Assembly: GCA_003279715.1 (NCBI GenBank) | Contig: QCGY01000001.1 | Location: forward strand, 62,001-126,000 | Direction: 5' to 3' | Length of the DNA: 64,000 nt | Origin: Pelagibacteraceae bacterium AG-390-D18 | Lineage (GTDB): Bacteria > Pseudomonadota > Alphaproteobacteria > Pelagibacterales > Pelagibacteraceae | Shown: positions 9,989 to 32,681 of the stretch, in pieces | How the letters are laid out: every line of letters begins with the position of its first letter | Numbering within the stretch: position 1 is the stretch's first letter | Translations under genes and position numbers: made by a program | The notes under the pieces: generated by a model | The model's database searches: none | What the model saw: the letters and a program-made list of their open reading frames with translations, nothing else | What the model was told of the DNA's origin: nothing

Positions 9989-10572
9989 TTTTGAATTTTT
10001 AAATATTCTTTAATTTTTAAGACGGGTAATCCCATTATAGTATCTTCATCTCCAGAAATGTTTGAAAACAAATTTCTTCCCTCCCCTTCAATCTGATAAA
10101 CGTTATAAGCATATAAGATTCTGTCTGGTATTTTTGATAAATAAATTTTTAAATCTTCATCTGTGAAATTTTTCATTGTTAGCTCCGCTTTATCGGTATA
10201 ATTCCAAATCATTGAGCCATTTTTTGAGATACAGACAGAACTTATTAAGTGATGTTTTTTTCCATTGAGTTTTTTTAAGATTATTAAAGCTTCTTCTCTG
10301 CTTTCAGGTTTTGATATCAATTCATTATCCAAATCTATTACACTATCGGCACCCAGAACTAGTTGGTCTCTTTGACTTAAACTAACTTTATTAGCTTTTA
10401 ATTCAGCTAAATTTTTTGAAATATCTTCTGGTGAAGCTAACTCTTTGGTAAGGCTTTCTTTGACAACATCTTCGTCAACGTTTGATGGTTTAACTTCACA
10501 AGGTAAATTGTGTTTGTCTAATATTTCTTTTCTAACTTTACTCTTGGAGGCAAGAATAATTTTATTTAACAT
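9985..10572 (-). CDS. Maf-family nucleotide pyrophosphatase
   Basis: The 195-residue protein has the Maf opening ILASKSKVRKEILDKHNL, the acidic DEDVVKESL, the metal-binding LGADSVIDLD and the late motif AYNVYQIEGEG. Maf proteins hydrolyse non-canonical or regular NTPs and have been tied to septum formation and nucleotide pool cleaning. It lies between ppsR (11-bp overlap) and aroE in the same order as near the Caulobacter origin. Substrate preference among the Maf and YceF groups cannot be settled here. Confidence 0.92.
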   Translation of the reverse strand: MLNKIILASKSKVRKEILDKHNLPCEVKPSNVDEDVVKESLTKELASPEDISKNLAELKANKVSLSQRDQLVLGADSVIDLDNELISKPESREEALIILKKLNGKKHHLISSVCISKNGSMIWNYTDKAELTMKNFTDEDLKIYLSKIPDRILYAYNVYQIEGEGRNLFSNISGDEDTIMGLPVLKIKEYLKIQK

Positions 10573-11389
10573 TGTTTAAATATATTTCGTGTATTTTTAT
10601 TATTGAAGCAGCAGTTTCTTCTACTGATTTTCTAGTAACATCAATTGATGGCCATTTATATTTTTGAAAAGTCTTTTTTGCGTCTATAATTTCTTTTTTT
10701 ATATCTTCTATATTTGTATATTTTATGTTTTCAGATTCTTTTAAAGAAGTCATTCTATTTTTTCTTAAATCAACTAATCGTTCTGGTTCTGTGTTTAAAC
10801 CCACAACACAAGATAATTGCGGGTTATCTCTCAGTTTTTTTGGTAAAGAGTTTTCATTTACAAGTGGTATGTTTGAAGTTTTAAAACCTTTATTGGCCAA
10901 ATAAATTGATGTGGGTGTTTTACTTGTTCTACTAACGCCAACCAAGATAATATCTGATTTTTCTATATCATTTACTAAATTTCCATCATCATGGCTCATT
11001 GTAAATTGTATGGCTTCAATCCTTTCATAATATTCATCATTGAGAGCGTGTTGTCCACTTGGTTCATGAGAAGCTTTTTGATTTAAAATTTTAGAAAAAT
11101 TTAAAATTAAATTTCCCAGTACACCAAAACAAGGGATTTTTTTTCCATCACTTATATTGGCTAAATATTTTGCTAAATTATTGTCTACAATAGTATATAG
11201 GATTACTGAATTTTTATTTTTTCTTGCATCTTCTAAAATTTTAAGAATTTGATTTTCAGTCCTTGTGAAGGAATAAGAATGTACTTTATATTCAATATTT
11301 TTGAATTGAGCTTTTAAGGCCAAAAAAATTCGATCAAGCGTTTCTCCAGTCGAGTCAGATATAAGGTAAATTTGATATGTATTGCTCAT
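10562..11389 (-). CDS. ppsR: bifunctional kinase/pyrophosphorylase regulating PEP synthase or pyruvate phosphate dikinase (DUF299)
   Basis: The 275-residue protein starts YQIYLISDSTGETLDRI, typical of this family. It has the P-loop-like GVSRTSKTPTS (151-161) and a conserved middle, ASHEPSGQHALNDEYYERI. Family members inactivate PEP synthase or PPDK by ADP-dependent phosphorylation and reverse it with phosphate. Which target is used here is not visible. The gene is transcribed away from the gap that I propose as the replication origin; homologues flank the mapped origin of Caulobacter and that of Rickettsia. Confidence 0.92.
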   Translation of the reverse strand: MSNTYQIYLISDSTGETLDRIFLALKAQFKNIEYKVHSYSFTRTENQILKILEDARKNKNSVILYTIVDNNLAKYLANISDGKKIPCFGVLGNLILNFSKILNQKASHEPSGQHALNDEYYERIEAIQFTMSHDDGNLVNDIEKSDIILVGVSRTSKTPTSIYLANKGFKTSNIPLVNENSLPKKLRDNPQLSCVVGLNTEPERLVDLRKNRMTSLKESENIKYTNIEDIKKEIIDAKKTFQKYKWPSIDVTRKSVEETAASIIKIHEIYLNNVK

Positions 11390-11661
11390 GAATAAATTGT
11401 TAATAAATTTGTATTATTTTAATAAAATTACTCAATTTAAATATTGGTTAATTTTCATTGTAAAATAAGGGTTTTGTTCACATTAACAAACATATGAATA
11501 AAATTATACAATATATTGAATAAATATTTTAAAAGCTTCAATTTAAACAATTTAATCAATTAATAATTGTTATTAAGTTGTTAATAAAATGTTAAAAAAA
11601 ACTTATCATCAATATTCACAATACATAATACTAATACAATAAATATATATACTATTTTAAT
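11390..11661. other. oriC: candidate chromosome replication origin (oriC)
   Basis: This 272-bp gap between leftward ppsR and rightward hemE is nearly all A and T and has no credible coding frame. The ppsR|hemE junction is the location of the replication origin in Caulobacter, and genes on both sides point away from it. It holds four 8-of-9 matches to the DnaA box TTATNCACA: 11398-11406 and 11579-11587 (reverse, TGTTAATAA), 11474-11482 (TTGTTCACA) and 11612-11620 (ATATTCACA). It also holds two perfect CtrA-type sites TTAA-N7-TTAA at 11437-11451 and 11581-11595. No perfect DnaA box was seen, so function is inferred mainly from synteny. Confidence 0.7.
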
Positions 11662-12663
11662 ATGACACCTCTTTACAAAGTAATAATAAATAAAAACACG
11701 AAAATAAATCCAATTTGGATAATGAGACAAGCTGGAAGATACTTGTCTGAATTTAGAGAAATAAGAAAACAAAATCCAAACTTTATAAAATTATGTTTAA
11801 ATGAAAATTTATCATCAGAAATAACTCTGCAACCTTTAAAAAGATTTGATTTGGATGCAGCTATTATTTTTTCTGATATTTTAATGTTACCATATGGTTT
11901 AAATCAAAAAGTAGAATTTGAAAAAGGTTTTGGCCCTAAACTTGGTGAAGTTAATATCGAAGAGATGTCAAAATTAGATGAAGTTGATTTTGTTCAAAAA
12001 ATTTATCCAGTATATAAGGCAATTAAAAAAGTAAGTACAAACGAAATAGTAAACAATAAAAATACAATAGGATTTGTTGGTGCTCCCTGGACACTTCTTG
12101 TTTATATTATTAATCAAAAATCCCCTAAAAAGAACTTGAAAGAAGATTTTTTTAAAAATGATTTTTTAATAAATAGAATTTTATTAATTTTAGAAAAATT
12201 TTTAAAAATACATATTAAAAATCAAATTGATAATGGCGCAAATATAATACAAATATTTGATAGTTGGGCAGGTTTATTAGAAGAGAAAGACCTACCTAAT
12301 TATGTTTATTCACCCACTCTAAACTTAGTTAATTATGTTAAATCTTTAAATATCCCTGTAATTTGTTTTCCTAGAGAAATTAAAAACTATAAAGAATTTT
12401 GTGATATTGTTAAGCCGGATGCAGTGAGTATTGACTATAATGTCGATCCAAAAAAAATTTTAAAAGATATAAAAATTCCAATACAGGGTGGGCTTGATCC
12501 TAAAATGTTACTTTCAGATAAAGATACTTTAAAAAAAGAAGCAATAAAATATTTGGATATTTTTAAAGACCACCCTTATATATTTAATTTAGGTCATGGA
12601 GTTTTGCCCGAAACAGATCCCAATATGTTTGAATACTTGGTGAATACAGTAAAAGATTATTAA
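11662..12663 (+). CDS. hemE: uroporphyrinogen decarboxylase
   Basis: The 333-residue TIM-barrel enzyme has PIWIMRQAGRYLSEFRE near the N-terminus (substrate-binding arginines), IIFSDILMLPYGL with the catalytic Asp, QGGLDPKMLL and the C-terminal FNLGHGVLPETDP. It converts uroporphyrinogen III to coproporphyrinogen III in heme synthesis. It is the first rightward gene next to the candidate origin. TATACT at 11648-11653 ends 8 bp before the ATG, so a leaderless message is possible. The TAA stop overlaps the hemH ATG by one base. Confidence 0.97.
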   Translation: MTPLYKVIINKNTKINPIWIMRQAGRYLSEFREIRKQNPNFIKLCLNENLSSEITLQPLKRFDLDAAIIFSDILMLPYGLNQKVEFEKGFGPKLGEVNIEEMSKLDEVDFVQKIYPVYKAIKKVSTNEIVNNKNTIGFVGAPWTLLVYIINQKSPKKNLKEDFFKNDFLINRILLILEKFLKIHIKNQIDNGANIIQIFDSWAGLLEEKDLPNYVYSPTLNLVNYVKSLNIPVICFPREIKNYKEFCDIVKPDAVSIDYNVDPKKILKDIKIPIQGGLDPKMLLSDKDTLKKEAIKYLDIFKDHPYIFNLGHGVLPETDPNMFEYLVNTVKDY

Positions 12664-21195: not shown

Positions 21196-21990
21196 ATGCA
21201 AATTATTTCAGTAATAAATCAAAAGGGTGGGGTAGGAAAAACAACAACCGTCATAAATTTAGCCGCTGGATTAACTCAACTTAATAAAAAAATTTTAGTT
21301 ATTGATTTGGATCCCCAAGGAAATGCCACTACAGGTCTTGGATTATCCAATGTAGACAACTCAAGTGACACAATTTATGGTGTACTAAATGGAACTAGAG
21401 AGATTAATGAGATAATCAAGAAGACAAAGTTTGAAAATTTAGATATTATCACTTCTAATGTAGATCTATCAGGGCTTGAGGTAGAGACGGCTGACGATAG
21501 TAATAGAGCCTTTATATTAAAGGCTAAATTAAGCTCTTATTTAAACAATTCTAGAGGATTATACGACTATGTACTTATTGATTGTCCACCTTCCTTAAGT
21601 CTTCTTACAGTTATGGCACTTGTCTGCTCAAACTCACTTCTGGTACCTTTACAAACAGAATTCTTTGCTCTTGAGGGGTTAACCCAACTCATTAAAACTA
21701 TTGAGAGGATAAAAGTAAGTTTAAATCCAGATTTAAAAATTCGAGGGATCCTTTTGACCATGTATGACAAAAGAAATAAACTTTCTTCACAAGTTGAAAA
21801 GGAAGCTAGAGATTATTTTCATGAAAAAGTTTACTCAACCGTAATCCCAAGGAATGTGAGATTGTCAGAGGCACCCTCGCATGGAATGCCAGTTTTAATT
21901 TATGACAAATCTTGTCCTGGTAGTAAATCTTATTTTAGTTTTACTGATGAATTTATAAATCAAGAGTCAAATATAGGGAGTGTAGCTTAA
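21196..21990 (+). CDS. parA: chromosome partitioning ATPase ParA
   Basis: The 264-residue deviant Walker ATPase starts MQIISVINQKGGVGKTTTVI (signature Lys plus Walker A). It has LVIDLDPQGNATTGLG (Walker A') and DYVLIDCPPSLSLLTVMAL (Walker B). The lack of an N-terminal DNA-binding extension marks it as a chromosomal type. It forms the gradient on the nucleoid that moves ParB-parS. It overlaps parB by one base. Confidence 0.97.
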   Translation: MQIISVINQKGGVGKTTTVINLAAGLTQLNKKILVIDLDPQGNATTGLGLSNVDNSSDTIYGVLNGTREINEIIKKTKFENLDIITSNVDLSGLEVETADDSNRAFILKAKLSSYLNNSRGLYDYVLIDCPPSLSLLTVMALVCSNSLLVPLQTEFFALEGLTQLIKTIERIKVSLNPDLKIRGILLTMYDKRNKLSSQVEKEARDYFHEKVYSTVIPRNVRLSEAPSHGMPVLIYDKSCPGSKSYFSFTDEFINQESNIGSVA

Positions 21991-22832
21991 TGGATAAAAT
22001 TAAAAAAGGTCTTGGAAGAGGTTTATCATCGCTAATTGGTGAAACTAAAGTAGAGATTCAAAAAAACCAATTACCAGTAAGCGACTTAATACCAAATAAA
22101 TACCAACCAAGAAAAAACTTTGATGAGGCAAACTTAGAAGACTTAACAAATTCTATAAAAGAAAGAGGAATGATACAACCAATCATAGTTAGAAAGTCAT
22201 ACAATGAAAATTCAAAATTTGAAATAATTGCAGGTGAGAGAAGGTGGATAGCGGCACAAAGATTAGGTATTCATAATGTTCCTGTAGTAATTACAGAGGC
22301 AGATGATTTAAAATCTTTAGAATTTGCAATAGTTGAAAATGTTCAAAGACATGATTTAAATCCGTTAGAAGAAGCCCGAGGTTATAAAAGATTGATAGAT
22401 GAATTTTCTTATGATCAAGAAAAAGTATCAAAATTTATAGGTAAAAGCAGAAGTTACATAACTAATTCATTAAGAATATTAACTCTACCAGCTGAAATTA
22501 TAAAACTAATAGAGACACAAAAATTAACTGCTGGCCACGCAAAAATTTTAGTTGGATTAGAAAATGCTTCTTTTGTTGCAAATAAAATTATTGAAAAAAA
22601 ATTATCTGTAAGACAAGCAGAAAATTTTGTTCAATTATTTAAAAAGAAGAGGCAAAATTCAAAGATTATAAAAGATACAAATATTATTGCTCTTGAACTT
22701 TCAATATTAAATAAAATTGGATTAAATGTAGAAATAAAAAACACCAAGAGAAATAAAGGAAAAATCTCCTTCGAATATAAAGATCTAGATCAGTTAAATA
22801 AAATTATAGATATAATTAAATCTAATTATTAG
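21990..22832 (+). CDS. parB: chromosome partitioning protein ParB
   Basis: The 280-residue protein has the N-terminal ParA-stimulating stretch KGLGRGLSSLIGE, the CTP-binding ParB/Srx domain with GERRWIAAQRLG and ENVQRHDLNPLEEARGY, a helix-turn-helix (about 145-185: QEKVSKFIGKSRSYITNSLR) and a C-terminal dimerisation domain. It binds the parS in rsmG. Its 3' end overlaps convergent holA by 11 bp. No key motif is missing. Confidence 0.97.
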   Translation: MDKIKKGLGRGLSSLIGETKVEIQKNQLPVSDLIPNKYQPRKNFDEANLEDLTNSIKERGMIQPIIVRKSYNENSKFEIIAGERRWIAAQRLGIHNVPVVITEADDLKSLEFAIVENVQRHDLNPLEEARGYKRLIDEFSYDQEKVSKFIGKSRSYITNSLRILTLPAEIIKLIETQKLTAGHAKILVGLENASFVANKIIEKKLSVRQAENFVQLFKKKRQNSKIIKDTNIIALELSILNKIGLNVEIKNTKRNKGKISFEYKDLDQLNKIIDIIKSNY

Positions 22833-27621: not shown

Positions 27622-28587
27622 ATGAACAATTTTAAAAAAATAGGTTTAACTGCATTAGCAGGTTCTCTTATTGCTACTTCAGCTTTTGCTGGTTCAATGA
27701 GTGTAGGTGGTTCTGCAGGTATAAGCTATAGTGGAGCAAGTAACTCTGCAAAAGGTAACTCTTGGTCATCTGGTGACTCTCTAACTTTCACAGGTTCTGG
27801 TGAATTAGATAATGGTCTGTCAGTAGTAACTTATCAAGAAATTGATGGTGGTAGTCTTGATGACAGATATATGTCAATGGAAATGGATGGCTTAGGAAAG
27901 CTTACTTTCAATGCTAAAGGTGGAAGCTCTGCAATGTCAGCTGTTGACGATGTAATGCCTACTGCTTACGGTGAAGCTTGGGATATAATCGGAAGCAAAA
28001 CAACTGCTCCGGCTACTGGAGTATCACTTAAAGAAGGAGCAATTGGTGGTTTCGCAACTGCTAACTCTTTCTTCTACGATGTACCAGAATTGATGGAAGG
28101 TTTAGATGTTAACGTATCTTACGTACCATCAGGAACTGATAGACCAGACGGATCTATCTCTGTTGCAGTAGCATACACAGGTGTTGAAGGTTTAACACTT
28201 GGTTATGCACAAGATGACAATGGATTAGCAGGTACTAGCTCATTAGAAACTGAAACTATGTACGCTAAGTACGCTTGGGGTTCGTTCACAGTTGGTGTTC
28301 AAGAAACTGAACAAGAAAACGACGGTGCAACAACTTCTGATGATGAGTTCTCAGCATTTGGTATTACATACCAAGTATCTGATGATTTAACTATCGGTTA
28401 CACTACATCTGAAAGAGAGTTTGGTGATAAGACTCAAGACGAAGAGTCTGTAAGCTTAAACGTTTCATACACTTCAGGTGGAATGACAATTGGAGCAGCT
28501 ATGGTGTCTATGGATAACATGGGTGGTTCAACTGCATCAGTAGATGATATCGATGGTTACGCTATCGATGTATCATTTGCATTCTAA
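27622..28587 (+). CDS. outer-membrane porin, copy 1
   Basis: The 321-residue protein has a signal peptide cleaved after SAFA (about residue 23). The mature chain is rich in Gly, Ser, Asp and Thr, shows alternating strand patterns and ends YAIDVSFAF, whose terminal Phe is the usual beta-barrel assembly signal. It lacks lysine-rich drift and uses C-ending codons (AAC, TTC, TAC), unlike its neighbours, as expected for an abundant protein. A strong Shine-Dalgarno (AAGGAG) and a GC-rich terminator flank it. It differs from copy 2 by about 32 ungapped substitutions. Solute selectivity is unknown. Confidence 0.88.
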   Translation: MNNFKKIGLTALAGSLIATSAFAGSMSVGGSAGISYSGASNSAKGNSWSSGDSLTFTGSGELDNGLSVVTYQEIDGGSLDDRYMSMEMDGLGKLTFNAKGGSSAMSAVDDVMPTAYGEAWDIIGSKTTAPATGVSLKEGAIGGFATANSFFYDVPELMEGLDVNVSYVPSGTDRPDGSISVAVAYTGVEGLTLGYAQDDNGLAGTSSLETETMYAKYAWGSFTVGVQETEQENDGATTSDDEFSAFGITYQVSDDLTIGYTTSEREFGDKTQDEESVSLNVSYTSGGMTIGAAMVSMDNMGGSTASVDDIDGYAIDVSFAF

Positions 28588-29415: not shown

Positions 29416-30381
29416 ATGAACAATTTTAAAAAAATAGGTTTAACTGCATTAGCAGGTTCACTTATTGCTACTTCAGCTTTTGCTGGTTCAATGAGTGTAG
29501 GTGGTTCTGCAAGTATAAGCTACAGCAACTTAAGTAATGCAGACGGTGGTAACACTTTCTCATCTGGTGACTCTCTAACTTTCACAGGTTCTGGTGAATT
29601 AGATAATGGTATGTCAGTAGTAACTTATCAAGAAATTGATGGCGGTACTCTTGATGACAGATATATGTCAGTTGAAATGGATGGCTTAGGAAAGCTTACT
29701 TTCAATGCTAAAGGTGGAGACTCTGCAATGTCAGCTGTTGACGATGTAATGCCTACTGCTTACGGTGAAGCTTGGGACATAGTCGGAAGTAAAACAACTG
29801 CTCCAGCTGCTGGGCAAGCACTTAAAGAAGGTGCAATTGGTGGTTTCGCAACTGCTAATTCTTTCTTCTACGATGCACCAGAAATGGTTGATGGTTTAGA
29901 TGTTAACGTATCTTACGTACCATCAGGAACTGATAGACCAGACGGATCTATCTCTGTTGCATTAGCATACACAGGTGTTGAAGGTTTAACAGTTGGTTAT
30001 GCACAAGATGATAATGGACTATCAGGAACTAGCTCATTAGAAACTGAAACTATGTACGCTAAGTATGCTATTGGTTCGTTCACTGTTGGTGTTCAAGAAA
30101 CTGAGCAAGAAAACGATGGTGCAACAACTTCTGATGATGAATTCTCAGCGTTTGGTATTACATACCAAATATCTGATGACTTAACTATCGGTTACACTGC
30201 ATCTGAAAGAGAGTTTGGTGATAAGACTCAAGACGAAGAGTCTAAAAGCTTAAACGTTTCATACACTTCAGGTGGAATGACAATTGGAGCAGCTATGGTA
30301 TCTATGGATAACGTAGGTGGTTCAACTGCATCAAGAGATGATGTCGATGGTTACGCTATCGATATCGGATTTGCATTCTAA
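29416..30381 (+). CDS. outer-membrane porin, copy 2
   Basis: The 321-residue near-duplicate of the porin 1.8 kb upstream has the same signal peptide (cleavage after SAFA), the same length and a C-terminal YAIDIGFAF. About 32 residues differ. Seven are clustered at about 38-48 (NLSNADGGNTF here, GASNSAKGNSW in copy 1), probably an exposed loop; others include Trp to Ile in KYAIGSF and charge changes near the end (V to K, V to R). Codon use is again biased to C-ending codons. DNA identity starts at the ATG and continues past the stop through the terminator. Confidence 0.88.
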   Translation: MNNFKKIGLTALAGSLIATSAFAGSMSVGGSASISYSNLSNADGGNTFSSGDSLTFTGSGELDNGMSVVTYQEIDGGTLDDRYMSVEMDGLGKLTFNAKGGDSAMSAVDDVMPTAYGEAWDIVGSKTTAPAAGQALKEGAIGGFATANSFFYDAPEMVDGLDVNVSYVPSGTDRPDGSISVALAYTGVEGLTVGYAQDDNGLSGTSSLETETMYAKYAIGSFTVGVQETEQENDGATTSDDEFSAFGITYQISDDLTIGYTASEREFGDKTQDEESKSLNVSYTSGGMTIGAAMVSMDNVGGSTASRDDVDGYAIDIGFAF

Positions 30382-32117: not shown

Positions 32118-32681
32118 ATGGATAAGCAAAATTTGATAATTTTTAATAATAATTCTTTTTATGATATTATGAAAGAATTAGAAGAAAATTTAAATTTTAA
32201 AATTTTTGAAGCATCTAATGATAAAATATTAAATAACATAAAAGATGATTTAAAACATTACCTCATTATTACTTCAGAAAAAGTAGGTAATTTTAATAAT
32301 CAATTTATTTTGGACCAAACACCAATCAAGATTACAAAATTAATAGAAAGATTTAATATCCAGTTTCTTAAAGCTAATTTCATAGAAAAGTCTGAATTTA
32401 ATGTTGGAAAATATAAAATAGATTTGAATTCAAGAGAATTAAAATCAAAAAAAAATGTTTTAAAATTAACAGAAAAGGAAATCAATATCATAATATATTT
32501 ATCAAAATCAAATAATGCTGTACGAGTTGATCAATTACAATCTGAAGTTTGGCAATATCATTCAAATCTTGAAACCCATACTGTTGAAACACATATATAC
32601 AGATTAAGAAAAAAAATACTTAAAACATTTAACGATAATAATTTTATAATTAGTAAAAAAAATGGTTATCAAGTCAATTAA
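32118..32681 (+). CDS. OmpR-type winged-helix protein with a degenerate receiver-like N-terminus
   Basis: I chose the ATG at 32118 (187 residues); a longer open frame from 31974 runs antisense through the transpeptidase and is unlikely. Residues 1-95 look like a receiver domain in strand pattern (LIIFNNNSFYDIM, HYLIITSEKVGN) but the phosphorylatable Asp is not evident. Residues about 105-187 form an OmpR/PhoB DNA-binding domain: LKLTEKEINIIIYLSKS, SEVWQYHSNLETHTVETH, IYRLRKKI. It probably works without phosphorylation. The targets are unknown; the divergent transpeptidase is a natural candidate. It overlaps the ArfA-like gene by 20 bp. Confidence 0.8.
   Translation: MDKQNLIIFNNNSFYDIMKELEENLNFKIFEASNDKILNNIKDDLKHYLIITSEKVGNFNNQFILDQTPIKITKLIERFNIQFLKANFIEKSEFNVGKYKIDLNSRELKSKKNVLKLTEKEINIIIYLSKSNNAVRVDQLQSEVWQYHSNLETHTVETHIYRLRKKILKTFNDNNFIISKKNGYQVN

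Follow-up and report, generated by a model that had tools for sequence, protein, structure and literature searches.

A putative replication origin between ppsR and hemE in a Pelagibacteraceae (SAR11) genome

The ppsR-hemE locus

The DNA analysed here, called the window below, is a 64-kb stretch of a 33-contig Pelagibacteraceae (SAR11) draft genome with a completeness of 82%. A gap of 272 bp (11390-11661) separates two divergent genes. Its left boundary is ppsR (COG1806/DUF299; 10562-11389, minus strand; PF03618, E 2.6e-88) and its right boundary is hemE (11662-12663, plus strand; TIGR01464 above cut-off). The gap contains 14% GC (86% A+T) and no coding sequence. An initial annotation, which proposed it as a candidate replication origin, gave exactly these coordinates and described the gap as AT-rich and non-coding. 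GC content in 2-kb bins of the window ranges from 21 to 35%. As in Cori-type origins, the AT content of the gap exceeds the genome average. Its folding as single-stranded DNA is ordinary (z -0.20).

NCBIfam and Pfam searches support the assignment of dnaQ, coaE, aroE, a Maf-like gene, ppsR, hemE, hemH, hemJ, rho, mnmE, mnmG, a ParA-like gene and ParB. These names, first given for the locus, stand, with two amendments: an NCBIfam search at 1e-30 gave no match for the rsmG-like ORF, and mnmE, which had been omitted, precedes mnmG. The ParA-like and ParB genes (21196-22832, plus strand; ParA-family matches and TIGR00180 parB_part above cut-off) are located about 10 kb from the putative origin. 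Genes had also been described as running away from the gap on both sides. This is true over 8.0-15.5 kb but not beyond, where two neighbouring sulfotransferase-domain genes (PF00685; 15460-17162) lie on the minus strand and break the co-oriented arm between rho and mnmE.

DnaA boxes in the gap

Five sites in the gap differ by one mismatch from TTATNCACA. They start at 11398 (minus strand), 11474 (plus), 11493 (minus), 11579 (minus) and 11612 (plus), which corrects an earlier count of four. A perfect TTATNCACA is not found in the gap of the host genome, in agreement with the initial annotation. Dinucleotide shuffles of the gap contain 1.03 such sites on average, and five are reached in 0.3% of them (P ~0.003). 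Nowhere else in the window are one-mismatch boxes so dense over 272 bp. Over the whole window, 74 sites are found for 103 expected. The window-wide count is not enriched, hence the cluster in the gap is local.

Box 1 (11398-11406, minus strand), on the ppsR side, reads TTATTAACA, which is also the modal form in relatives (mean column identity 0.94 over 107 gaps, see below). Box 2 (11474-11482, plus strand; mean column identity 0.94) reads TTGTTCACA, the modal form in relatives being TTATTAACA. The next site, TTATTCATA (11493-11501, minus strand), is an extra near-box present in few relatives; among 30 gaps, it has the same position and sequence only in locus L012. Three minus-strand slots then form an array phased at 11 bp. 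Slot A1 (11568-11576) reads TTAATAACA, with two mismatches, slot A2 (11579-11587) reads TTATTAACA, and slot A3 (11590-11598) reads TTTTTAACA, with TTATAAACA as the modal form in relatives. Box 3 (11612-11620, plus strand), on the hemE side, adjoins the putative unwinding region. It surpasses the other boxes in conservation (mean column identity 0.95); its modal form is TTATTCACA, changed to ATATTCACA in the host genome.

Conservation of the gap in relatives

Of the 147 family genomes searched for hemE, 122 proved to have the locus. Judged by hemE, the closest relatives with a name are single-cell genomes and MAGs of Pelagibacteraceae. We compared 107 gaps, 30 from loci of the hemE search and 77 from named genome contigs. 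All 107 measure 261-300 bp and have ppsR and hemE as divergent flanking genes. One-mismatch boxes number three or more in 106 of them, and 85 carry at least one perfect TTATNCACA. The special interest first attached to the missing perfect box is weakened by this count. The absence is a quirk of the host genome.

In an enrichment search for 9-mers in the 30 gaps, run against shuffles and without naming any box, TTATTAACA came out on top, with 26 of 30 genomes for 2.0 expected; TTATTCACA came third, with 11 genomes for 0.4 expected. The conserved sites align to the window at box 1 (11398, minus), box 2 (11474, plus), the array (11568, 11579 and 11590, minus) and box 3 (11612, plus). Conservation is higher in box columns than in other columns (0.89 versus 0.78; the P value of 5e-10 is too small because of shared ancestry). 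Over the 107 gaps, 163 pairs of minus-strand boxes are spaced by 11 bp and 84 by 22 bp. A period of 11 bp corresponds to 9-mers 2 bp apart on the same face of the helix.

In sampled DNA of three relatives (G035, G026 and G003), no stretch holds more boxes than the gap, which shares first place in G026; low-GC stretches elsewhere average 0.3-0.4 one-mismatch boxes. As in Cori-type origins, the box cluster is beyond chance and is not found elsewhere. The gap had one further match, at G000:C1:145757 (L002). It lies in AT-rich DNA between ORFs, covers 78 bp at 74% identity, and was discarded as probable low-complexity similarity. In one draft genome (G131:C5:73513-74509, L211), hemE seems broken or frameshifted, with overlapping partial matches and several stops; the origin gap is intact.

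Loci lacking hemE and the dnaA locus

Three genomes from another genus (G009, G022 and G066; L214-L216) have rho and not hemE after ppsR and the gap. Their hemE homologues are found elsewhere in the genome and are only 30-35% identical, which suggests that hemE was replaced or relocated. The gap itself is kept. Boxes are located at offsets 5 and ~174, and at offset 217 in two of the three genomes, and a CCTAATAA-like block is retained.

The dnaA gene is located about 65 kb to the right of the gap, and this distance is ~62-65 kb in genus g1. In 12 genomes, the number of one-mismatch boxes in the 400 bp upstream of dnaA is 0-2, and exact copies of TTATNCACA or TTATNAACA are absent there. The encoded DnaA carries RDHTT, the canonical motif of domain IV.

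A DnaA-trio-like run next to box 3

Four base pairs past box 3 begins a run of triplets, ATA ATA CTA ATA (11625-11636, plus strand). It is followed by a very AT-rich stretch (11637-11661) that extends to the hemE start codon and, from its sequence, is the likely initial unwinding region. An A at offsets 7, 10, 13 and 16 is kept in 98-100% of relatives, and the later triplets vary in their first base. In seven representatives, which share ancestry and are not independent, NTA occupies on average 3.86 of five triplets, versus a maximum of 2.29 in 2000 shuffling trials. The published search rule for basal unwinding systems asks for a box with at most two mismatches, a spacer of at most 16 bp and at least three 3'-NAN-5' motifs (PMC8287927). 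The window presents ATATTCACA, a 4-bp spacer and four NTN triplets, in line with this rule, as do six of the seven representatives (shuffled mean 2.1).

The NTA run 3' of box 3 resembles DnaA-trios, and we regard it as a putative trio element. As in the Bacillus subtilis basal unwinding system, a box is followed by a 4-bp spacer and in-phase triplets with a middle T on the box strand (3'-NAN-5' on the opposite strand). The likeness is one of sequence, and it is partial: the SAR11 triplets are mostly ATA/CTA rather than CTA, and the SAR11 spacer is not GC-rich. In 18 other alphaproteobacterial gaps, a class-wide test showed no excess of trios over the opposite strand (mean 2.56 versus 2.56). 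The trio-like assignment is therefore restricted to Pelagibacteraceae. CTA/ACT repeats noticed by eye after boxes in a few other alphaproteobacteria were dropped in view of the same result.

Chromosome-scale skew and gene strand

Six single-contig relatives were sampled at twenty 20-kb stretches each. In these genomes, GC skew and gene strand switch at the gap and again at half a genome's distance. Axes were drawn with the terminus opposite the origin. Averaged over the six genomes, the best axis deviates from the gap by 0.000 genome lengths for either measure. In all six relatives, the axis through the gap ranks within the top 0-5.8% of all axes for both measures. A skew switch located elsewhere had been named beforehand as evidence against an origin here; the mean skew and strand axes fall on the gap. 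A GC-skew switch at the locus is what a Cori-type origin is expected to show.

The skew signal is weak, with a mean score of 0.048, and its resolution of the axis is no finer than tens of kb; skew alone therefore does not separate the gap from the dnaA locus 65 kb away. It also largely follows gene strand in the sampled relatives, so that the two axis measures are not independent. Free fits of origin and terminus in four relatives are off by 4 to 133 kb, the largest deviation being that of G003. The skew of the window itself follows gene strand, with a cumulative minimum near 45-47 kb, and is not decisive. A search for a dif site to pin the terminus gave pattern matches no better than a reversed-pattern control.

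CtrA and IHF sites

The gap of the window contains two TTAA-N7-TTAA sites (0.28 expected). Over 30 relatives, 13 sites are found versus 7.7 +/- 2.6 expected, which is no clear enrichment. The CtrA-consensus match at 11581-11595 is produced by the box array, because the TTAA in TGTTAATAA recurs every 11 bp. An 11-bp array can in this way mimic the CtrA consensus and mislead motif scans of AT-rich alphaproteobacterial origins. On these counts, the gap is not predicted to carry the CtrA binding sites of a Cori-type origin. Origins devoid of CtrA sites have been described (PMC1914354), hence their absence does not exclude this type.

Four Trans_reg_C proteins were found in the draft genome. Inspection of their sequences and neighbours indicates a PhoB-like, a ChvI-type-like and an OmpR-type-like protein and one with a degenerate receiver; none of the four appears CtrA-like. 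A ctrA ortholog was also reported absent from Pelagibacter (PMC2877005). One of the four, encoded at 32118-32681, is a winged-helix protein of the OmpR type, and Pfam recognises no receiver domain in its N-terminal part. One-mismatch IHF sites number 123 versus 63 in shuffles, but many overlap DnaA boxes and are inseparable from them. An HU-like and an IHF-beta-like protein are present in the draft genome, both below curated cut-offs.

Comparison with known origins

Caulobacter Cori is located between hemE and COG1806 (PMC1914354). The SAR11 gap, predicted to serve the same function, is likewise intergenic between these two genes, with the same layout in the 107 relatives. Across the class, a divergent ppsR lies upstream of hemE in 18 of 29 loci. 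Like Cori of C. crescentus, the SAR11 locus combines these divergent boundary genes with an AT-rich gap holding a DnaA-box cluster, and dnaA is located elsewhere. In contrast with Cori, the SAR11 gap is far more AT-rich, TTATTAACA boxes dominate, and neither CtrA-site enrichment (30 relatives) nor a CtrA-like regulator (four Trans_reg_C proteins) was found. The predicted Rickettsia and Wolbachia origins are also AT-rich, intergenic and adjacent to hemE, with DnaA boxes, and Rickettsia retains COG1806 as the other neighbour (PMC1914354). These predictions include CtrA and IHF sites. In SAR11, the CtrA count stays at background, and the IHF matches cannot be told apart from the boxes.

The array recalls another system. 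The low-affinity DnaA arrays of Escherichia coli oriC consist of same-strand 9-mers 2 bp apart, with an 11-bp period. The SAR11 array likewise has its 9-mers on one strand, with the same separation and period. Unlike those of E. coli, its sites are TTATTAACA variants, and no IHF/Fis arrangement is evident in SAR11.

A SAR11 form of a known origin

We conclude that the gap is very probably (about 0.92) the chromosomal oriC of the host genome, a member of the hemE|COG1806 type of Caulobacter and Rickettsia. The candidate origin of the initial annotation is thus supported by the skew and strand axes, by box conservation in 107 relatives, by persistence of the gap after loss of hemE and by the scarcity of boxes upstream of dnaA. 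This kind of alphaproteobacterial origin is already known; what is found here is its SAR11 form, without an evident CtrA layer.

The gap could be merely a divergent ppsR/hemE promoter region under DnaA regulation, with the origin elsewhere nearby. Two promoters are needed in any divergent gap, and the skew leaves tens of kb of latitude. Yet G009, G022 and G066 keep the boxes and the adjoining block in front of rho. A box-bearing gap that outlives hemE argues against a mere hemE promoter, and its survival is expected of an origin. Since the box number and the phased array are also unusual genome-wide and the skew axis coincides with the gap, we consider a promoter-only role improbable. Still less probable is an origin at dnaA, as in many bacteria. 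The distance of dnaA throughout genus g1 falls within the skew resolution, but the few inexact boxes upstream of the gene in 12 genomes speak against it, as does the position of Caulobacter Cori between hemE and COG1806 (PMC1914354). Finally, it is hardly credible that the boxes arise simply from the very high A+T content of intergenic DNA. One-mismatch boxes are indeed common in DNA of such composition, but shuffles that keep the dinucleotides do not account for their number, other low-GC stretches contain few of them, and their positions and 11-bp phasing are conserved across the 107 relatives.

For an origin in the gap, we infer the following order of DnaA binding and unwinding. DnaA would bind box 1 and box 2 and oligomerise along the minus-strand array from 11568 to 11598. 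From box 3, it would load onto the NTA triplet run starting at 11625 and melt the AT-rich DNA before hemE. Helicases would enter there and forks would depart bidirectionally.

A more tentative proposal, to which we give less than even odds, is that SAR11 kept the alphaproteobacterial origin site and lost the CtrA layer, and now uses mainly non-consensus TTATTAACA boxes, an 11-bp array feeding a DnaA-trio run, and a DnaA with a canonical RDHTT motif. If so, initiation would depend chiefly on cooperative, low-affinity filling by DnaA.

SAR11 bacteria are among the most abundant in the ocean, and estimates of their replication in situ depend on origin-to-terminus coverage. In one SAR11 replication study, the terminus was taken from the coverage minimum, and coverage of wild SAR11 populations is reported as a single-origin V shape (PMC9589681). 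In the open-access library searched, we found no detailed account of the SAR11 origin. Coverage measurements gain an anchor from a fixed, conserved origin coordinate with a box map, and SAR11 initiation becomes open to tests with purified DnaA.

Farther along the window, two closely alike 321-aa genes (27622-28587 and 29416-30381) have the same orientation and enclose a short reverse ORF without Pfam match. The first of the two matches the Gram-negative porin family PF13609.
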